From the NCBI GenBank assembly GCA_020723325.1, contig DYJD01000009.1, forward strand, positions 124,001 through 188,000: a DNA stretch of 64,000 nt. Direction: 5' to 3'. Under the pieces are notes generated by a model that was not told the origin of the DNA, made no database searches, and saw only the letters and a program-made list of their open reading frames with translations. Source of the DNA: Desulfosudis oleivorans (lineage in GTDB: Bacteria; Desulfobacterota; Desulfobacteria; Desulfobacterales; SURF-7). Both the position numbers and the translations under genes were made by a program. Shown in pieces: positions 54,098 to 63,755 of the stretch (its first letter is position 1; every line of letters starts with the position of its first letter).

Positions 54098-56362
54098 CTA
54101 TTGTATCGAGTTCAGCAGGATTTCAAGCTCCTGCATTGTATACGGCTTTTTCAACACACCGCAAAACCCGTATTTCTCGAACTCGGACATGACCGGATCA
54201 TTTGAATACCCGCTGGAAACAACGGCTTTCACCTGGGGCGCCAGCTTGCGCAAAGCCGCCATGGTTTCCTTGCCGCCCATGCCGCCGGAAATGGTAAGGT
54301 CCATAATGACGATATCATAGGGCTTGCCGGCTTTGGCCGCTTGCAGGTATAAATCAATGGCCTCCTGCCCGTCTTTGGAGGAGTCGGCCCGGTATCCCAT
54401 TTGCTTGAGCATTTCCGTCAGGAGTTCACGGATGATCTCCTCATCGTCCATGACCAGAACAGCGCCGCCCTTTAATTTTTCAGCCACATGGCCGGGCATG
54501 GGCCGGATTTCCGTCGGCCGGAGCTGATATGCCGGCAAATAAATAGCGAAGGTGGCGCCCAGCCCTTTTCCGGATTCGGCTGTAAGAAAGCCTTGATGTT
54601 TGTTGATGATGGAATGGGAAATGGCCAATCCGAGGCCAGAGCCTTTTTCCTTGGTAGTAAAGTAGGGATCGAAAATTTTATCCAAATGCTCTTCCGGAAT
54701 ACCGATCCCCGTATCCTGAATGGAAATCCGGACAAAATCCCTGTCCGGCATGGTCTGCAGAAATTTGTTTTCCCCTAGTTCGTCTGGCGTGATTTTCTGC
54801 AGGCAAATGCGAATGACACCCTCATAAGCCATGGCTTGCTGGGCATTCACGATCAGGTTGTAAACCACCTGACTCATCTGCCCTTCATCCAGTTCCACCA
54901 TGGGTAAATCTGATCCGATCGCATACTCGCACCTCACCTTGGAGCCGCGCAGCACAAATTCCACCGCCTCCATAATGAATTTTTCAATGGCCACGGCCTT
55001 CTTGACCGGCGCTCCGCCCTTGGCAAAGGTGAGTAATTGCTGGGTCAGCTTCGCCGCTTTTTCCGTCACGCTTTCAACACTCTTCAGATACCTGGCGATA
55101 TCCTTGCCGACCGCCATGTTCACCTGGGCCATTTGGATATTCAGGAGAATTCCGGACAACATATTATTGAAATCATGGGCCAGCCCCCCGGCCAACAATC
55201 CGATGGATTCCAGCTTGCGGATTTTGAGCAGCTCTTCCTCCATTTTTTTTTGGCTGGTGATGTCCCGGATGTGAAAAATACTGCCGGCAAAACCGCCGTG
55301 TTCATCAAAATGGGCCGCGGCGCTGATGCTGACCTCCCGCAGGCGGCCGTCCCTGGTCATGCGTTGTGACTCAAGATTGGATATTTTCGAACCCGCCAGC
55401 ACGCGGGTTTTGAGATCCTGGAGATCCCGGGCGCCGCCCTTTGGTACAAAATCCATTGTTTTGCTTTTGATTTCATCCAAATTCCAGCCGAACTCGTATC
55501 CAAAAGCAGAATTCAAAAAAACCGGCCGCCATTTTTCATCATACACCACGATGGGATCAGCCGAGGAATCCAGCAGGGTGCGGTATTTGGCGCCGGTTCT
55601 TTCCGATTCCAGATAAAGCCGGCGGTATTCCTCCCGTGATTCAGCCAGTTCGGCGGTTCGCTTCTGGACAATGGCCTCCAGTTCATCATTCAGACTTCTC
55701 AGATCATCATGGGCCCGCCGTAATTCCAGCCGTTCCAGCTCCAATTGGGCATAGAGCCTTGCATTCTCCAGGGCGGAAGCCGCTATACGCTGGATGGTTT
55801 TCCACAAGGGGCGATCCTGTTCATCGATGGAACGGTGATAAGCGCTTCTTTCCCTGGAATTGCCGAAGACCATGATCCCCAATACTTTGCCCTGGTCACC
55901 CATTCGGCAAAAAATCAACACGCGCTTATCCATGACCATGACCGGCTGGGGCATGTTGTTTTCAATAAGGATATCGGCAGCACTGTGCTTGGAAACAGTT
56001 TCCAGCAGATCCAGCAGAAACTCCCGGGCAGATTCCGGTTCAGGCTCTTCGTAATAACCATCCTTGCCGGCCAGGGTAAGTTCCTGCAAGGAGTCATCCC
56101 AAAGACAGAAAAGAGATTTTTCATAATCAAAATGTTCCACCAGGGATCGGGCCACAAGGAGGGCGATCTCATGTTCGCTATGGACGGTCTGAAGCCGGTG
56201 CCCGAGATGGATGATTTCTTCCTGGGTCTTGAGCTGGTAATCCAGCCGCATCTGAAGATCGTACTGATGAAGTTCGCCGGCGGAAAGCTTTTTGACTTGA
56301 TCCTTCAGCGACTCTATCTGTTTCTGAAGGTCTTCCAGGCATTGTGCATCCGTATTACTCAT
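54098..56362 (-). CDS. Hybrid histidine kinase: GAF, PAS, kinase, receiver
   Basis: ATG 56362 (M-S-N-T-D-A-Q-C) is chosen; the frame is open to 56554 but that part overlaps the FIST gene. The 754-residue product has a GAF-like domain (about 60-205), coiled coil, PAS (about 260-370), HisKA with L-A-H-D-F-N-N-M-L (phosphoacceptor His, about 400), HATPase with D-T-G-I-G-I-P and G-S-G-L-G-L-A, and a C-terminal receiver with V-M-D-D-E-E and I-M-D-L-T-I. The last receiver takes phosphate from the kinase. The FIST gene precedes it by 13 bp. Confidence 0.93.
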   Translation of the reverse strand: MSNTDAQCLEDLQKQIESLKDQVKKLSAGELHQYDLQMRLDYQLKTQEEIIHLGHRLQTVHSEHEIALLVARSLVEHFDYEKSLFCLWDDSLQELTLAGKDGYYEEPEPESAREFLLDLLETVSKHSAADILIENNMPQPVMVMDKRVLIFCRMGDQGKVLGIMVFGNSRERSAYHRSIDEQDRPLWKTIQRIAASALENARLYAQLELERLELRRAHDDLRSLNDELEAIVQKRTAELAESREEYRRLYLESERTGAKYRTLLDSSADPIVVYDEKWRPVFLNSAFGYEFGWNLDEIKSKTMDFVPKGGARDLQDLKTRVLAGSKISNLESQRMTRDGRLREVSISAAAHFDEHGGFAGSIFHIRDITSQKKMEEELLKIRKLESIGLLAGGLAHDFNNMLSGILLNIQMAQVNMAVGKDIARYLKSVESVTEKAAKLTQQLLTFAKGGAPVKKAVAIEKFIMEAVEFVLRGSKVRCEYAIGSDLPMVELDEGQMSQVVYNLIVNAQQAMAYEGVIRICLQKITPDELGENKFLQTMPDRDFVRISIQDTGIGIPEEHLDKIFDPYFTTKEKGSGLGLAISHSIINKHQGFLTAESGKGLGATFAIYLPAYQLRPTEIRPMPGHVAEKLKGGAVLVMDDEEIIRELLTEMLKQMGYRADSSKDGQEAIDLYLQAAKAGKPYDIVIMDLTISGGMGGKETMAALRKLAPQVKAVVSSGYSNDPVMSEFEKYGFCGVLKKPYTMQELEILLNSIQ

Positions 56363-56375
56363 AACGGCGCTATTC

Positions 56376-57554
56376 CTATCTCCAAACGAACAAGGCAAAC
56401 ACATCAGTGTAGTTGTGAAAAATATTCCGCCGGCCGATGGGGCAGAATTCACCATAGGAAAAAAAGCCGATCCAGGGAATTCCAGGCGCCAGATTGTTTT
56501 GGAAGGTATGCAGCAGGTCGTGCTTTTCACTGTCCGCCAAAACGATTTTCCCACGGCCCACGCAATTGATATCCATCACCAAAAATGGGATTCTTGCCCC
56601 CAGTTTCTCCCTCAACTTCTTGATGCTGTTCCCGGAGGCGGCAAACATCTTATCGCGATCCCTGCGGGTCACCCAAATTTTATTTCCGATTTCCATCTTC
56701 ACCGGCAGGGATATGGATCTGCTCGCGGCATCATATTTGGCGATATAGCGGATGATATAGCGGTCATAGGATTGGGTCAGGTCGGAATCGGTCAACTGCC
56801 CGATACAAAAATGCAGGGCGACTTTGCCGAAATCCTTGATAATGCCCTCGCCCACACATTCTGTTAAAACATCCATGACCGGCCGATGGTCGATCTCATG
56901 GAGCCTGTTTCCTTGTGCTTTGGTGACTTCCATTTCCAGGCCGATGGGCACGCAGCCGTGACTGACATCCGTAATCAGGTCAAAATCGCCGCTGAGAATC
57001 GCCGCACTTACGCCGCCCTCGTATACGCGCCAATTATGATACTGATAGGTTTTATCCCGCAGCAGATTGTCCGCGGCCAATCCGCCGATAATGGGCAGAT
57101 CTGCCCCCAGATGTTCTTCCAGAGCCGGCACCAGGTCATCCATGACGGCATTAAGCCCGCACGGAAACAACAGCAGGCAGCGGGCATCCTTTTCAATACC
57201 AAGGCCCAGGGATTTCCCCAGGTCCCTGCCTGCCGCATGCGAATCATCAATACGTGCAACAGCAGCGGTTCGGAGACGGATTCTTGGATCCGCCAGCAAC
57301 ATCACCACCAGGCAATGGTTGCTTTCATCCGCAACACCCGGGGCAATCACCCCCGCCCCTGAGCAGCCCACCATGGGAACATCGCCCACCTTTTTCCGGA
57401 CTTCTTCCAGAAGAACTGACTGGGAATACCCCACCGTGGCAAAGACGATACAGGCATGCTGGGCATGCCCCTTTACCATGGCCAGCGCTTTGGTGACTGC
57501 TTCTTCCGCCGCTGTTCTTGGATTCTTCGCCGCACTATACCCGACTCCGATCAT
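56376..57554 (-). CDS. FIST-domain sensor protein
   Basis: ATG 57554 (M-I-G-V-G-Y-S-A-A) follows AAAGGATG; the longer frame to 57662 has no ribosome site. The 392-residue product shows FIST N (V-G-C-S-G-A-G-V-I near 66) and FIST C (G-F-F-S-Y-G-E-F-C-P near 368) domains. FIST proteins bind small ligands and are found with histidine kinases or chemotaxis systems, which fits the kinase next to it. Confidence 0.93.
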   Translation of the reverse strand: MIGVGYSAAKNPRTAAEEAVTKALAMVKGHAQHACIVFATVGYSQSVLLEEVRKKVGDVPMVGCSGAGVIAPGVADESNHCLVVMLLADPRIRLRTAAVARIDDSHAAGRDLGKSLGLGIEKDARCLLLFPCGLNAVMDDLVPALEEHLGADLPIIGGLAADNLLRDKTYQYHNWRVYEGGVSAAILSGDFDLITDVSHGCVPIGLEMEVTKAQGNRLHEIDHRPVMDVLTECVGEGIIKDFGKVALHFCIGQLTDSDLTQSYDRYIIRYIAKYDAASRSISLPVKMEIGNKIWVTRRDRDKMFAASGNSIKKLREKLGARIPFLVMDINCVGRGKIVLADSEKHDLLHTFQNNLAPGIPWIGFFSYGEFCPIGRRNIFHNYTDVFALFVWR

Positions 57555-57571
57555 TGCTTCATCCTTTCCTG

Positions 57572-58678
57572 CTACACCACAATGTTCAATAGGCCGTTGC
57601 CTGTATTGATGCGTTCCAGCAATGTTAGGCCCGTGGAAGCGCTGGAAACAGCCAGACGGCAATCCACATGCTCGGCCTTGAATCCATGGGCCGCAAGATT
57701 GGACTTCAATTCCGGAATGCCGGCTGCGATCAGATCCCGGACACTTGCATCCGCCGTCTCAAAAAAACCGTTTACGGTTTTTTGGAAAATGGAAAAATCC
57801 GCTGCCAGTTCCCCTAGATTCGACAGCTCCAGCAGCAAAGCTACCCGCACCACCCCGGCCCCCCGTGCTTTTGCGCCCTCATCCCGATCCGCAAGCTGAA
57901 TCAGCAATTGGCCCAAACGCCATTCGCCTTCCAGTGATATGGGAAAAGGGAAAAAAAACTTGCCGGTTTCTTCCAGGGCTTGCTTGTTGAACAGTTGCAG
58001 GTCTTCCAGTTGATCCACAAACACCCGCATGGAGCCGCCCGCATCTGATTTTTCGGCCGGCTCATGTTGAAGGCCCTCCAAAATCAGGGCTTTTAAATCA
58101 TCGGCAATCATTTCCTTAACCCGGCTTTTGTCCGCTGGGGTGTCTGCCAGCATTTGCCGGCGCAATTTGTGCTCCCAGCTCAGACCGCCGTCCCGGATGA
58201 TGCGCCCAAGTATCTCCCGGTCGGGTGTTGCGGACTTGAGGGCCAAAGTAGAGAGCAGCTTTTTCAGGACAGGGCCGTGAATGCCGCTGGGCTTGGCTTT
58301 GGTTCCACTGCTCTCCAAGGAGTTCAAAAGATCAAAAACCAAGTGATAGGCTTCCTGACGAAAGGGGATCGGAATTGTTTTTAAGGGCACTACAGGCGGA
58401 TTAGCGCCTTCCGCCATGATTTTCAACACTGTTTCCCTGCCGGTTGATTGCACTTTTACGGTTATGCTTTCATCGATCTTCAGCGGCGTATGGGTTTTCA
58501 CCGCGACTCTCTGGCCCTGGATCAGCAGAACCGCCTCCCGCGGGCCGGAGTCCCCCACTACTCTTGCCGTTATTATCCGGCCGGGACGCAGTCCGGATAA
58601 AAGCTTCTGGTTATCAGCCTTGGACTTGACCACAAGATCAGATGAAGAAACCAGCAGTCGCGATATCTTTTGGGCCAT
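57572..58678 (-). CDS. FliK-like flagellar hook-length-control-family protein (tentative)
   Basis: The 368-residue protein has no signal peptide. It contains L-R-P-G-R-I-I-T-A-R-V-V-G, V-L-L-I-Q-G-Q-R-V-A-V-K-T and I-T-V-K-V-Q near the N-terminus and a C-terminal region with E-W-R-L-G-Q-L-L-I. These are like FliK-domain proteins that control hook length or substrate switching in Desulfobacterota. Location in a flagellar block supports this, but the assignment is not firm. Confidence 0.6.
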   Translation of the reverse strand: MAQKISRLLVSSSDLVVKSKADNQKLLSGLRPGRIITARVVGDSGPREAVLLIQGQRVAVKTHTPLKIDESITVKVQSTGRETVLKIMAEGANPPVVPLKTIPIPFRQEAYHLVFDLLNSLESSGTKAKPSGIHGPVLKKLLSTLALKSATPDREILGRIIRDGGLSWEHKLRRQMLADTPADKSRVKEMIADDLKALILEGLQHEPAEKSDAGGSMRVFVDQLEDLQLFNKQALEETGKFFFPFPISLEGEWRLGQLLIQLADRDEGAKARGAGVVRVALLLELSNLGELAADFSIFQKTVNGFFETADASVRDLIAAGIPELKSNLAAHGFKAEHVDCRLAVSSASTGLTLLERINTGNGLLNIVV

Positions 58679-58698: not shown

Positions 58699-59175
58699 CT
58701 AGGTCATCGCCAACAACTTCTTTTTCAAATCAATGACCAAATCCACTTCTCCGCGGGACATGGTCAATTCCCGGGCAATGGCTTCCGAGTCAAAACCTTT
58801 TTCCAATAACCGGCCGATGGCCTCCTGTTGATCATAGACATGCACTTGATCTGCGCCCCAGGTCCCGGATTGCAGATTCAAATCCGCCCGATTCAACAGC
58901 AGGTTCAAACTGATGATGCGGCTGTCCAGTTTTTCATTCAATTGATTGATGATTCGATTCTTTTCTTTTAATTGCTTTTCAAAATCCCGGGACGCTGTTT
59001 GCGCATCCTGGAACAATGGTTCGATCAGGCGAAAAACCTGTTCGGCCGCTCCGGCTGAAATCTCCCGCTGCAGGCTCATGCGGAGGCTGCGGATTAAATA
59101 AATCATGAACATGATTAAAAGCATATCAATCACGATCATGAGAATAGTAAGGAATTCGATGGATAGCCCCTTCAT
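58699..59175 (-). CDS. DUF2802-like flagellar-cluster membrane protein
   Basis: The 158-residue product has one N-terminal membrane segment (about 8-29), a coiled coil (about 55-95) and a C-terminal helix-turn-helix-like segment, G-F-D-S-E-A-I-A-R-E-L-T-M-S-R-G-E-V-D, seen in DUF2802 proteins of flagellar operons. It sits between FliK-like and small flagellar genes. Function unknown. Confidence 0.75.
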   Translation of the reverse strand: MKGLSIEFLTILMIVIDMLLIMFMIYLIRSLRMSLQREISAGAAEQVFRLIEPLFQDAQTASRDFEKQLKEKNRIINQLNEKLDSRIISLNLLLNRADLNLQSGTWGADQVHVYDQQEAIGRLLEKGFDSEAIARELTMSRGEVDLVIDLKKKLLAMT

Positions 59176-59195: not shown

Positions 59196-59495
59196 TCAGG
59201 CAATGGTATCCAGCAAGCGTCCGGTTCCCTCCGGATCTTCTTCATTCAACGCCTGTTTTTCCTTTTCTTTTTGTTCCTGCTCACGTTCCTGCTTTTCATC
59301 ACGCTTTTTCTCCTGATACGGCTTGATCTTGTCCGCATTATCAGATTCATTGACGACAGCGCGCTGCTCCATTTCCTTGTGGGCCTGCTGGGCCGGGGTC
59401 ATCTGGCGCGGATCCAGCATTTGTTTTATTTGCTGGCTGTCCCGGGCCGCATCCCCCTGTTGAACCACGATGGTGATATTTGAAATCGTCGACAC
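59196..59495 (-). CDS. Small charged flagellar-cluster protein
   Basis: GTG 59495 follows GGAGG. The 99-residue product is highly charged and probably coiled (E-K-K-R-D-E-K-Q-E-R-E-Q-E-Q-K) with no recognised domain. Transcription with the repeat protein upstream (gap 33 bp) is likely. Confidence 0.7.
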   Translation of the reverse strand: MSTISNITIVVQQGDAARDSQQIKQMLDPRQMTPAQQAHKEMEQRAVVNESDNADKIKPYQEKKRDEKQEREQEQKEKEKQALNEEDPEGTGRLLDTIA

Positions 59496-59528: not shown

Positions 59529-61934
59529 TTAGACCGTTCTGAAATCATTCAGCTCCACCTTGCTGACTGCTTCAGCTTTCAAGGCCCGGTTCAAGGCCTC
59601 CTTGATCACCTTTTTCAGTTGCTCCGGATCGGTTTCACCTGCTTCTTTCTCAAAAAATTCCTTGCTGATGGCTGAATAAACAATGGAGCGGAAAAACGCC
59701 TCCTGCCGGATGATTTCATTGGCAGACTCTGTTTTTTGCAGATCAATGATCACATCAGCGGTAATAAAGGCAATTTTTTCATTACCGGGTGGTGCAAAAA
59801 CAACAAAACCCTTCAGCTCGATTTTAAAATCATGAGCCATTACCGGTGGTTTTTTCTTCTGGGCCGGGGGCGGTTTGGGTATGGATTTAACCGCAACTTC
59901 CGTCTGCATCCCGGTTTGCGAAGCGGTTTTCTTGCCGCGGAAATAATGATATCCGCCCGTTGACGCCAATATCACCAGCAGGATCGAAGCAGCCAAGGCC
60001 ATATACTTGGACCGATACCAGGGACGCCTTAAGGGTCGGAGCGCGGTCTCCTCTTTCTCAGCCAGAATGACCCGATCCACTGGTTCCTGTGGCAGGGCGG
60101 CGGGCTCTTCAGGCTTGCTCTCTTCCGCGGCTCCAAGATCATCCTGCAACAACCGGTCGATTTCATCCTGGGAAACCAGGTCTTTCTTCGGCCTTTCCTT
60201 GGCCTTTTGCACCGGCTGTACCGGCGCTTCTTCATCCACTTCCCGCAGCAACTGATCAATATCGTCCTGGGAAATGATCTCTTCCTCGCCCGTCGACATT
60301 CCGCCGGCCGGGATCGATCCGCCTGGGCCATCTTCGCCCCCCAGCAACCGGTCAATGTCGTCCTGGGAAATGATCTCGGTTTCTTCCAATCCTTTTTTCA
60401 GAGCAACGGTTTCAGCAACATTATCTTCACCCCGTAATAGCCGATCAATGTCATCCTGGGAGATGATCTCGGTGGTGTCGCTTTCCGCTTTCGTGGGAAG
60501 AATTTCAGTCCCGCCTTCATCCTGCAATAGCCGCTCGATATCATCCTGGGAAATGATTTCGGTACTGTCTATTTCAGCTTTCAAGGCAACGGTTTTAGGA
60601 CCGCTCTCATCCTGGAAAAGCCCATCGATATCATCCTGGGAAAAAATATCACTTGTATCTGCCCGGTCTTTCGGCCCCATGCTTTTATCTTCATCACCCT
60701 GATCCAGCATGAGCGAGTCGATTTCATCCTGGGAAATGAGTCCGCTTTCTCCAGCCGCTTTTGTCGGCGACTCCTTTAAGGGTTTTTTCTTGGCTGCGGC
60801 TTTTGCAAGCAGTTCATCCAGTTCGGCTTGGGTGATAAAATTGGAGCGCGCTTCTTCCTCTTCCACCGGGGCTGTTTCAGTCCCGCTCGGTTTTGCCTCC
60901 AATAAAAGCCGATTGATCTCGTCCTGTGTCAGGATCAAGCCGGCATCTTCCGTCGCCGAAGCCTGCTCTTCCAATGTTCCGCTTTTGTGGTAGGACATCA
61001 ACAATTGGTCGATATCAGCTTGAGTCACCAAAGAGGGGATGGGCTCTCCGGCTTGAGCTGTTTTGGGTATTTCGATTTCAGTATTTTCCAAATTAATGCC
61101 GGCCAGCAACTGGTCGATGTCGGACTGGGTTACCATACCGCTATCCGCAGCCGGGGGCTCTTCAACCTTGGGCAGGGGCTCGGACGCACCACCACCGCCG
61201 AATAACTGGTCGATATCGGATTGGGATATCAGACCCGTGTCGGATTCGGCCACAGCCCCGCCGGATCCGCTCTCTTCCTCGGCTCCGGACAGCAAACGAT
61301 CAATTTCAGACGGGGATACCACTCCGCTGTCCGCGGCCGGCGGCTCCTCAACCTTGGGCAAGGGCTCGGACGCACCACCACCACCGAACAACTGGTCGAT
61401 ATCGGATTGGGATATCAGACCCGTATCGGATTCGGCCACAGCCCCGCCGGACCCGCTCTCTTCCTCGACTCCGGACAGCAGGCGATCGATGTCGGATTGG
61501 GATACCACTCCGCTGTCCGCGGCTGGCGGCTCCTCAACCTTGAGCAGGGGCTCGGACACTTCACCGCCGCCGAACAACTGGTCGATGTCGGACTGGGATA
61601 TCAGGCCGGAATCCGACCCGGCTCCGGTCTCCTCCGCCGCGGCCGCAGCCCCGCCGGACCCGCTCTCTTCCTCGGCTCCGGGCGACCGTGAAATCAGCCG
61701 GATTTCATCAGAAATTTCCGCATCAAGGGTCTCCTCGATCTCCTCGGCTTTTTCCAGGGCAAGATCCAGCAGCCGCTCGATTTCATCCAGGCTGACCAGC
61801 TCTGCAGCAGGCCCTGCCCGGCGAACCGGCTCTTCCACGGCCACGGATTCTTCCGAAACCCCCCGCAACAGACGATCAATATCATCCTGGGAGATCTGAT
61901 CGCTTTCAGCATCTTGATGGAGGATATCGTCCAT
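59529..61934 (-). CDS. Multivalent S-Q-D-D-I-D-x-L-L repeat membrane protein with FliL-like C-terminus
   Basis: The 801-residue protein has 18 copies of a 10-residue motif, consensus I-I-S-Q-D-D-I-D-R-L-L, between residues about 12 and 610, separated by acidic Gly/Ser/Glu-rich linkers. A single membrane segment (about 644-665) and a FliL-like domain (about 701-801, with I-E-L-K-G-F-V-V-F and a C-terminal amphipathic helix) follow. The motif resembles the N-terminal peptide of FliM and FliN (L-S-Q-x-E-I-D-A-L-L), the CheY-binding segment of the flagellar switch. Motifs would be cytoplasmic if the FliL domain is periplasmic. The gene follows fliA by 16 bp. Confidence 0.85.
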   Translation of the reverse strand: MDDILHQDAESDQISQDDIDRLLRGVSEESVAVEEPVRRAGPAAELVSLDEIERLLDLALEKAEEIEETLDAEISDEIRLISRSPGAEEESGSGGAAAAAEETGAGSDSGLISQSDIDQLFGGGEVSEPLLKVEEPPAADSGVVSQSDIDRLLSGVEEESGSGGAVAESDTGLISQSDIDQLFGGGGASEPLPKVEEPPAADSGVVSPSEIDRLLSGAEEESGSGGAVAESDTGLISQSDIDQLFGGGGASEPLPKVEEPPAADSGMVTQSDIDQLLAGINLENTEIEIPKTAQAGEPIPSLVTQADIDQLLMSYHKSGTLEEQASATEDAGLILTQDEINRLLLEAKPSGTETAPVEEEEARSNFITQAELDELLAKAAAKKKPLKESPTKAAGESGLISQDEIDSLMLDQGDEDKSMGPKDRADTSDIFSQDDIDGLFQDESGPKTVALKAEIDSTEIISQDDIERLLQDEGGTEILPTKAESDTTEIISQDDIDRLLRGEDNVAETVALKKGLEETEIISQDDIDRLLGGEDGPGGSIPAGGMSTGEEEIISQDDIDQLLREVDEEAPVQPVQKAKERPKKDLVSQDEIDRLLQDDLGAAEESKPEEPAALPQEPVDRVILAEKEETALRPLRRPWYRSKYMALAASILLVILASTGGYHYFRGKKTASQTGMQTEVAVKSIPKPPPAQKKKPPVMAHDFKIELKGFVVFAPPGNEKIAFITADVIIDLQKTESANEIIRQEAFFRSIVYSAISKEFFEKEAGETDPEQLKKVIKEALNRALKAEAVSKVELNDFRTV
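61130..61600 (-). repeat. Recent tandem duplication of a ~186-bp unit inside the repeat gene
   Basis: Units of about 62 codons, each containing two motif copies and the linkers E-P-L-P-K-V-E-E-P-P-A-A and E-E-S-G-S-G-G-A-V-A, are nearly identical in DNA. This suggests recent unequal recombination or slippage and variable repeat number. Confidence 0.8.
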
Positions 61935-61950: not shown

Positions 61951-62733
61951 TTATTCGTAGAATGTCTTCAGCTTGTTTTTCAATTTGATCAGGGCCATGG
62001 TGTGGATCTGGCAGATCCGGGACTCGGTCAAGCTCAACACCTTGCCGATTTCATTCAAGGTGAGTTCATCATGATAATATAGGGAAATGACCAGTTGTTC
62101 CTTTTCGGAAAGGCCGGTGATGGCCTTGGCCACCACCTGCTTCAATTCTTGCCTGGCAAAATTCCGGGAAGGATCATCCAGGCTGCGAACTCCATCCTGA
62201 AACCGCTTCTGGGACATGGTCTCGTTATCCTGGTTGCGGATGAATTCATCCAGGCTGAGAATGGCCGTGCCGTGTATGTCCGTGAGATGCCGATAGTATT
62301 GATCCAGATTGATCCCGAGTTCCCCGGCGATTTCGCGGTCCTCGGCCGGCCGTCCCTCCCGGGCCTCCACCGTTGCCACCGCTTTTTCAATTTCCCGAAT
62401 TTTCTTGCGCATGGAGCGGGAATACCAGTCCATACTGCGCAGTTCGTCCAGGATGGCCCCGCGGATGCGGTATTCGGCATAGGTCTGCAGATTCACTTCC
62501 TTCTGCGGATCATACTTGTCCACCGCATCAATCAGTCCCATGCAACCGGCGCTGATCAGCTCATCCAACATCACACTGGAGGGCAGCTTGGCCGCCATCT
62601 TGCCGGCAATGCGCTTGACCAGATAAGCGTATTTGACAATCATTGCCTCCCGGACCTGGGGATCAAGGGGCCCTGGATTTATATTTTCGCCGGATTGCTC
62701 GTATTGTAACACCATATATTCCCGTTTCGGCAT
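61951..62733 (-). CDS. fliA: Flagellar sigma-28 factor FliA
   Basis: The 260-residue protein has sigma region 2 (Y-L-V-K-R-I-A-G-K-M, D-L-I-S-A-G-C-M-G-L-I-D-A-V-D-K-Y-D-P, T-Y-A-E-Y-R-I-R-G-A-I-L-D-E-L) and region 4 with L-T-L-N-E-I-G-K-V-L-S-L-T-E-S-R-I-C-Q-I-H. It directs RNA polymerase to late flagellar and chemotaxis genes. Its start lies 5 bp after the flhG stop. Confidence 0.96.
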   Translation of the reverse strand: MPKREYMVLQYEQSGENINPGPLDPQVREAMIVKYAYLVKRIAGKMAAKLPSSVMLDELISAGCMGLIDAVDKYDPQKEVNLQTYAEYRIRGAILDELRSMDWYSRSMRKKIREIEKAVATVEAREGRPAEDREIAGELGINLDQYYRHLTDIHGTAILSLDEFIRNQDNETMSQKRFQDGVRSLDDPSRNFARQELKQVVAKAITGLSEKEQLVISLYYHDELTLNEIGKVLSLTESRICQIHTMALIKLKNKLKTFYE

Positions 62734-62738
62734 TGGGT

Positions 62739-63755
62739 CTATTGTGTGTCTCCCAGCATCTGGGAGGTGCGGAAACCGATAAAGCGTTTTAAGAAAAATT
62801 TTATGTTGCCGTCCGACTCATGCCGCCGGGGCGACTCTAAAATGCCGGCAGCCAGTTTGATGAACTGTTTGCTGCATTCGGCGCCGGGATAAAGGCTCAT
62901 GACCGGTTTGCGGCGCAGCACGGCCTTTCTCATGAGCTCATCCCCTGGAATGAAACCGATATATTCCAGCAGGACCCCGTTCAGGAAGCGGTCCGCCACC
63001 TGGCTCAAATTTTCATACACCGCCTTGGCCACGCTGTTGTCCTTGACCATATTCACGAGGATCTTGAAATGCTTGGTGCCGTGCTGGGTGAACATCACCT
63101 TGATCATGGCATAAGCATCGGTGATGGAAGTCGGTTCATCCGTCACCACAATGATGCATTCGTCGGCCGCCAAATTAAAATACACCACATTGGCGGAAAT
63201 ACCCGCACCGGTATCGATGAGAAACACATCCAGCATGTCATCCAGGGCTTCGAACTCACTCAGAAGGTTCAGTTTCTGACCTTCTGAAAGATGGGTCAGT
63301 TCCGCAACCCCGGAACCGGCCGGAATAATGCGAATCCCCTCAGGACCCTCCACCATTACATCCGCAAGGGATTTTTCGCCGTCGATCACATGGCCCATGT
63401 GATAGGAAGGATTCAAGCCGAAAATGATATCGATATTGGCCAGCCCAAGATCCGCATCAAAGATCAGCACTTTTTTCCCAAGCCGGGCAAAGGCTACTGC
63501 CAAATTCCCCACGATATTGGTCTTGCCCACACCACCCTTGCCGCTGGTTACGGAAATCACCCGCGGGGCATGCTGAATCGAACGGGGCGCCGTGCTGCCG
63601 GAAATCATTCGCCGCCGCGCTTCCACGGCTTTTGTCTCCACAATTTTTCGTAATCCTTGTGCCTGATCCACGTTTCGTCTCCCTTGTGTGATCTGTTCAC
63701 ACCCTTGTTGATCATGATCCTCTACAGGGGTATCTTTGCTGCCGGAATCTGTCAC
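62739..63755 (-). CDS. flhG: MinD-like ATPase FlhG (FleN)
   Basis: A GTG at 63755 follows AGGGGAC. The 338-residue protein has the deviant Walker A motif S-G-K-G-G-V-G-K-T near 73-81, D-A-D-L-G-L-A-N and D-T-G-A-G-I. The N-terminal tail holds Q-G-L-R, which in FlhG binds FlhF to stimulate its GTPase. It sets flagellar number. The gene is 7 bp after flhF. Confidence 0.95.
   Translation of the reverse strand: MTDSGSKDTPVEDHDQQGCEQITQGRRNVDQAQGLRKIVETKAVEARRRMISGSTAPRSIQHAPRVISVTSGKGGVGKTNIVGNLAVAFARLGKKVLIFDADLGLANIDIIFGLNPSYHMGHVIDGEKSLADVMVEGPEGIRIIPAGSGVAELTHLSEGQKLNLLSEFEALDDMLDVFLIDTGAGISANVVYFNLAADECIIVVTDEPTSITDAYAMIKVMFTQHGTKHFKILVNMVKDNSVAKAVYENLSQVADRFLNGVLLEYIGFIPGDELMRKAVLRRKPVMSLYPGAECSKQFIKLAAGILESPRRHESDGNIKFFLKRFIGFRTSQMLGDTQ

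Follow-up and report, generated by a model that had tools for sequence, protein, structure and literature searches.

A FliL-like protein of Desulfosudis oleivorans that carries an array of 18 FliM-type docking motifs

The stretch of DNA considered here ("the window") comprises 64,000 nucleotides of Desulfosudis oleivorans, a member of the Desulfobacterales (NCBI GenBank assembly GCA_020723325.1, contig DYJD01000009.1, positions 124,001 to 188,000 of the forward strand), whose genome assembly amounts to 7.2 Mb in 113 contigs. On its minus strand lies an open reading frame (ORF) for a protein in which a long series of motifs resembling the N-terminal docking peptide of FliM is followed by one predicted membrane helix and a FliL-like domain. 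This product, referred to below as the array protein, and its parts are the following.

59529..61934, minus strand: array protein (array of FliM-like docking motifs, one predicted membrane helix, FliL-like domain); ORF with ATG start, 801 residues
61866..61892, minus strand: motif copy 1, SQDDIDRLL, residue 15
61767..61793, minus strand: motif copy 2, SLDEIERLL, residue 48
61572..61598, minus strand: motif copy 3, SQSDIDQLF, residue 113
61476..61502, minus strand: motif copy 4, SQSDIDRLL, residue 145
61386..61412, minus strand: motif copy 5, SQSDIDQLF, residue 175
61290..61316, minus strand: motif copy 6, SPSEIDRLL, residue 207
61200..61226, minus strand: motif copy 7, SQSDIDQLF, residue 237
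61104..61130, minus strand: motif copy 8, TQSDIDQLL, residue 269
60999..61025, minus strand: motif copy 9, TQADIDQLL, residue 304
60903..60929, minus strand: motif copy 10, TQDEINRLL, residue 336
60807..60833, minus strand: motif copy 11, TQAELDELL, residue 368
60708..60734, minus strand: motif copy 12, SQDEIDSLM, residue 401
60615..60641, minus strand: motif copy 13, SQDDIDGLF, residue 432
60525..60551, minus strand: motif copy 14, SQDDIERLL, residue 462
60435..60461, minus strand: motif copy 15, SQDDIDRLL, residue 492
60342..60368, minus strand: motif copy 16, SQDDIDRLL, residue 523
60246..60272, minus strand: motif copy 17, SQDDIDQLL, residue 555
60147..60173, minus strand: motif copy 18, SQDEIDRLL, residue 588
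59934..60014, minus strand: predicted membrane helix, about residues 641-667, flanked on both sides by basic residues (model helix, low confidence)
59535..59828, minus strand: FliL-like (SPFH-type) domain, about residues 703-800 (AlphaFold2 model and Foldseek)

Eighteen FliM-like copies had been counted in the first-pass annotation of this DNA, and the motif array in 59529-61934 is confirmed: a regular expression of the type [ST]Q-x-[DE]-I-D-x-L-L has 18 matches in the protein, the first at residue 15 and the last at residue 588, and 2000 shuffled versions of the protein, scanned with a slightly looser pattern, hold 0.0085 copies on average and never more than one, which rules out chance or composition as their source. 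Successive copies are spaced 30-35 residues apart, with the sole exception of 65 residues between copies 2 and 3. The single membrane segment and the acidic linkers described in the same annotation are likewise recovered, in that one helix is predicted, at low confidence, and residues 1-612 have a net charge of -108 and an isoelectric point of 4.05. On the topology that we infer, this acidic tail of ~610 residues is probably disordered and cytoplasmic and the FliL-like domain is probably periplasmic.

Codon comparisons among the 18 copies indicate that the motifs are kept by selection. In the motif codons the proportion of synonymous differences (pS) is 0.71, i.e., saturated, and that of nonsynonymous differences (pN) is 0.21; for the next nine linker codons pS is 0.73, also saturated, and pN is 0.65. 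The contrast holds for the nine C-terminal copies alone (pN 0.19 in motif versus 0.60 in linker), which lie outside a tandem repeat of a 186-bp unit (2.7 units, 61099-61604). That repeat and another of a 90-bp unit (2.4 units, 60425-60643) mark recent duplications, and together with the purifying selection they suggest that copies have been both gained and kept.

Relatives of the array protein were found in many families of one order. Used as a query, the whole array protein matched 19 of 59 genomes, that of D. oleivorans included, and an initial whole-protein scan of genome contigs confirmed no relative. A profile of the C-terminal domain matched 127 of the 241 genomes of the class at E-values (E) up to 0.001, classical FliL included, and strong homologues, a set chosen by reading the scores (89 to 219 bits), occur in 60 of these 241, of which 57 also have FliM and 58 have CheA. 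The relatives on nineteen named contigs include one from Desulfospira joergensenii DSM 10085 (Desulfobacterales in the NCBI taxonomy), whose array (L119) has 7 copies. Altogether 475 copies were collected from 62 loci, at 1 to 18 per protein, and the window protein represents the maximum. These loci are those of the 60 strong homologues minus G005 (cut by a contig end) and G097 (split frame), plus G002, G011, G146 and G147; the counts are lower bounds in seven of them, five cut at an edge (G011, G020, G060, G061 and G117) and two with an internal run of N (G010 and G054). Another 20 stretches, mostly shorter forms, include 15 without any copy by a strict pattern and five with 1 to 6.

Beyond the order, sampling of the phylum revealed no comparable array. 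With a stricter pattern, 394 genomes drawn from the phylum yielded four hits or fewer on either strand, apart from two genomes of this order, G000 with eight hits and G031 with seven, five of them clustered; the positions recorded are incomplete, such that groups of 2-4 hits or arrays of a variant motif may escape. One pair of hits in another order of the phylum (G372:C1:2318679 and 2319054) lies 375 bases apart on one strand. Scores of the C-terminal profile in the 394-genome sample did not exceed 73 bits beyond the order, and no plasmid-borne relative was found at E 1e-5. Within the genome of D. oleivorans the motif pattern has five hits beyond the array, all rejected as further carriers: two fall in large ORFs without SPOA features (SQAEIDAF and SQFDIDRF), one in a 35-residue ORF, and two do not start with Ser or Thr. 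The FliM of this genome, with Val at position 11, escaped the pattern and was recovered by family search, and neither of its FliN-like proteins (C84, C94) carries the motif. A second FliN-like gene (G000:C94:156008-156220; L052, L057) lies far from the flagellar cluster.

Some shorter FliL-like relatives bear tails of another kind. In L162 (1308-2165), L164 (1240-2055), L165 (1103-1930) and L166 (1050-1853), ~10 kb from fliM, acidic repeats of the form FTGNELDE or EITGHELDE replace the FliM-like motif, and the FliM of these genomes keeps the motif; L169 carries both FliM-like copies and the other acidic repeat type.

In sequence, the C-terminal part resembles FliL only weakly. Neither Pfam nor NCBIfam gives a match above cut-off for the array protein; the Pfam FliL family (PF03748) scores 17.3 bits against the whole and 20.6 bits against its C-terminal part, under a cut-off of 24.6, and a search of the genome for this family at E up to 0.001 returns the classical fliL and one other ORF, the array ORF being absent. 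Among homologous C-terminal domains, 9 of 16 match Pfam FliL at E up to 0.01, and a profile built from the 16 also recovers the shorter FliL proteins encoded beside fliM (E from 7e-13 to ~1e-6). No solved relative was detected by sequence search at E 1. An AlphaFold2 model of residues 613-801, made from an alignment of the window sequence with 18 relatives from the named contigs, has a predicted local distance difference test score that exceeds 90 over most of the final 100 residues and falls below 60 in the helix and linkers. Foldseek returns three matches at E up to 0.001: first FliL 6ahq (E 3.9e-4; template modelling (TM) score 0.65 by target), then the mouse stomatin SPFH domain 4fvj, then Helicobacter FliL 7sgn (E 8.4e-4; TM 0.73). 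The predicted fold, with FliL as its top match, thus bears out the FliL-like domain proposed in the first-pass annotation, and we regard the kinship with FliL as sound. Membership in FliM, FliN or CheZ was ruled out, as a domain search finds no FliM, FliMN_C or CheZ (PF04344) domain. In sum, the array protein is a FliL paralogue with an array of docking peptides of the type found at the FliM N-terminus and the CheZ C-terminus. This architecture is new to the literature and family databases examined: apart from the absence of a match in Pfam and NCBIfam, no description of a protein with a repeated EIDAL-type motif, or of a FliL with such a tail, was recognised in the open-access literature, covered as titles and abstract openings and with subscription papers mostly outside it, in keeping with the earlier remark that no such family was described.

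The CheY-binding motif of FliM has been published as LSQxEIDxLL (PMC5677366). The FliM of E. coli K-12 (MGDSILSQAEIDALLNG) includes ILSQAEIDALL, the C-terminus of E. coli K-12 CheZ (ASQDQVDDLLDSLGF) includes ASQDQVDDLL, and the FliM N-terminus of D. oleivorans itself is SEILSQEEVDSLLSG. One face of CheY is reported to bind both FliM and CheZ (PMC3774744), a salt bridge between CheY Lys119 and FliM Asp12 is reported from simulation (PMC7012829), and the Ile-Asp pair of the motif is the pair reported as mutated in Caulobacter FliM to test its CheY site (PMC5677366, PMC7534056). Over the 475 copies of the 62 loci the consensus is [I/L/V] S Q D D I D x L [L/M], the collecting expression itself restricting most positions; the residue before the Ser is I in 44%, L in 31% and V in 22%, and position 10 is D in 88% and E in 6%. 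The Ile-Asp pair has frequencies of I 0.88 and L 0.10, then D 0.84, E 0.09 and N 0.07, only such residues having been allowed by the expression. The likeness to the CheY-binding FliM N-terminus is real, I11, D12, L14 and L15 being retained, with the qualification that position 10 is mostly D rather than E.

The NCBIfam FliY model, for its part, matches one of five homologues at E 9.7e-9, with its best part at residues 320-362 in the repeats and no single stretch passing, and matches the window protein at E 0.14. EEIDALL occurs in the FliM of another group within the order, and the FliM proteins of the order seem split into two score groups, the N-termini examined being of EVDSLL type or EIDALL type; strong homologues of the array protein were observed together with the EVDSLL type.

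The array gene sits within a flagellar operon, and its neighbours in the window are these.

61951..62733, minus strand: fliA (sigma-28), directly upstream; TIGR02479, E 2.2e-80
62739..63755, minus strand: flhG (fleN), encoding a MinD-type ATPase, next to fliA on its upstream side; nearest solved relative FleN 5j1j, E 8.8e-71
59196..59495, minus strand: small 99-residue protein, downstream; no family; 34 of 39 loci have a similar ORF close to the array gene
58699..59175, minus strand: DUF6115/DUF2802-like protein; 39 of 39 loci
57572..58678, minus strand: FliK-like (Flg_hook) protein; 36 of 39 loci

The gene order flhF-flhG-fliA-[array gene]-FliK-like is conserved among 39 loci, of which L117 is on the L192 contig, some others may stem from a genome already counted, and L074, a short form, has no copies. 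The position directly after fliA, already noted in the first-pass annotation, is confirmed by a gap of 16 bases between the fliA stop codon and the array ATG; fliA adjoins the array gene upstream on the same strand in 32 of the 39 loci, five begin at a contig edge, and the two without fliA both belong to G118. There (L192 2856-4094, and L117) fliA and the 99-residue-like and FliK-like genes were not found at the locus, and flhG is the immediate upstream neighbour of the array gene. The classical fliL, fliM and fliN of D. oleivorans are encoded ~10 kb upstream and point the same way. Past the flagellar genes on their downstream side, a FIST-domain protein (window 56376-57662) lies beside a PAS histidine kinase with a receiver (54098-56554).

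If the homology is a guide, the membrane helix and SPFH-type domain would place the array protein at the motor, probably at the stators; FliL is reported to ring each stator in Borrelia (PMC9195833), and a paralogue that did likewise would hold its tail beside the C-ring. Each copy might then weakly bind an activated CheY-type receiver, the array as a whole gathering and concentrating many receivers next to the C-ring and storing or buffering them locally, such that it would govern the amount of phosphorylated CheY (CheY-P) arriving at FliM. The larger bound pool of CheY-P that an array on the stator side would form could slow and smooth switching, or act as a sink. The FliM N-terminal peptide itself is reported to bind with high affinity and to increase how many CheY-P molecules the FliM core has at its disposal (PMC9126983). 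We propose only tentatively that the array protein is a motor-anchored capture antenna, in which many retuned peptides per motor hold activated CheY-type receivers (or FlhG) locally; its copies possibly outnumber the FliM sites, with lineages tuning the response of the motor by copy number. No multivalent local signal buffer of this kind was found described for the flagellar motor in the literature examined.

CheY-type receivers are the likeliest partner of the copies, and we regard the reading of the array as a local store or buffer of such receivers as about an even prospect. Copy number rises with the number of CheA genes (Spearman 0.42, p 0.0014, n 56, with G020, G060, G061 and G117 dropped, G010 and G054 kept, and G002 and G011 without a CheA count). 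The genomes with no or one CheA have 1, 2, 2, 2, 3, 4, 6, 9 and 9 copies, as compared to a median of 8 in the other 47 (p 0.0025), and the correlation is 0.55 for family means (p 0.03, 15 families) and 0.36 when partial on genome size (n 60). Several observations weigh against this assignment. The link to CheA is not significant once phylogenetic contrasts are taken over a C-terminal-domain tree (r 0.32, p 0.15), nor inside the most densely sampled family (rho 0.20, p 0.23, n 39). Two genomes without a CheA or CheW match, G013 and G118 (92% and 97% complete), keep 2 and 4 copies, low numbers that nonetheless fit the link, and the copy score of G118 is third lowest of 38, the lower G133 and G120 having 2 and 5 CheA. 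The clear CheY of D. oleivorans, one of two small receivers near its CheA genes, has Ile at the site of E. coli CheY Lys119. Position pair 10-11 is E-V in 50 of 50 FliM N-termini, from genomes with and without the array, as against 88% D10 and 88% I11 in the array; the difference is systematic, and the array is therefore a retuned version rather than a plain copy of the FliM peptide. Lastly, the FliM N-terminus is reported also to dock FlhG (PMC12826062, PMC11236974), and since the same peptide serves two regulators, the presence of the motif cannot by itself be read as CheY binding. The first-pass annotation had overlooked FlhG docking, and its overall reading is upheld only in part, namely for the likeness to the CheY-binding peptide, the FliL-like domain and the place after fliA. 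As for CheZ, no match (PF04344) was found in D. oleivorans, and a search for CheZ only over the 241 genomes gave 18 matches, 14 of them over the cut-off and 6 of these among the 60 carriers of strong homologues (the other 54 having no match over it).

Among the alternatives, the one that survives best is a docking array for FlhG, whereby the tail would mimic the FliM N-terminus and tether FlhG to the membrane or motor, thereby controlling the assembly of the C-ring, the number of flagella and FlhG-dependent transcription. FlhG is reported to bind FliM/FliN through the FliM N-terminus, with FliM and FlrA sharing one FlhG site (PMC12826062, PMC11236974), and the first 36 residues of FliY are reported to suffice for FlhG binding in Geobacillus (PMC12327844). 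Of the 39 loci, 34 have flhG upstream in the same orientation, the remaining five beginning at a contig edge, and the gene that directly follows flhG in G118 does so in a genome with no CheA or CheW match. All 12 of the FliM-bearing genomes without CheA (among 138) keep the FliM motif, 11 exactly and G039 with TK for [ST]Q, from which it follows that the FliM motif has a role other than signalling from CheA. Three residues of Geobacillus FlhG contact FliY; in the FlhG of D. oleivorans the Lys and Phe among them appear kept and the Arg is Asn, under an inferred numbering offset (the paper gives the Arg as 207 and 277). However, the arrays of G013 and G118 are down to their 2 and 4 copies while FliM there keeps its full motif, the copies of G118 are altered in places, for instance to Phe or Ile at position 14, FlhG docking would not lead one to expect copy number to track CheA count, and the relative at L074 has flhG yet a short FliL-like protein without a copy. 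We consider FlhG as the main partner unlikely, and the evidence leans to CheY-type receivers.

Both partners are documented, in the sources cited, for the FliM N-terminus, and the data show features expected of each, such that CheY-type receivers and FlhG might compete for the same copies and tie the assembly state to switching; such sharing is more complex than needed, and we think it decidedly unlikely. A receiver not fed by CheA, comparable to the c-di-GMP-binding Cle proteins of Caulobacter, would account for copies that persist without CheA, and these proteins are reported to bind the canonical CheY site of FliM, as tested through the Ile-Asp pair (PMC5677366, PMC7534056); we nevertheless judge this improbable. 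Growth of a low-complexity acidic tail by selectively unimportant slippage, to which the two recent tandem duplications and the range of 1 to 18 copies might point, is ruled out for practical purposes, with a probability that we take to be very small, by the comparison of motif with linker codons (purifying selection on motif codons in which synonymous differences are saturated, the nine C-terminal copies included) and by the presence of copies in 15 families.

With up to 18 retuned copies, a probable place at the motor and members in many families of a single order, the protein family would constitute a natural experiment on the number of docking sites that a motor requires. The array also offers a ready tool for testing if switching bias or flagellar number depends on CheY-P or FlhG being captured locally, and it hints that bacteria related to the Desulfobacterales keep a regulator near the motor by means not described so far.

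Compared with known systems, the array protein shares with FliL (PF03748) one predicted membrane helix followed by an SPFH-type domain and a place in a flagellar operon, and differs by its motif-bearing tail of ~610 residues and a score under the Pfam cut-off; a separate classical fliL adjoins fliM in the same genome. The N-terminal peptide of FliY, which binds CheY-P and FlhG, has a motif similar to the array copies, and no CheC-like or FliN-like domain was found in the array protein. The C-terminal peptide of E. coli K-12 CheZ (ASQDQVDDLLDSLGF) is close to the array unit but is a single C-terminal copy on a phosphatase, whereas the array protein has no CheZ domain match. With the FliM N-terminal peptide most array copies share S/T7, Q8, I11, D12, L14 and L15; the array differs in having many copies, internal to a tail without FliM domains, and in having mostly D10/I11 versus the E/V of FliM; where FliM has a single docking peptide, the array family has up to 18 retuned copies.

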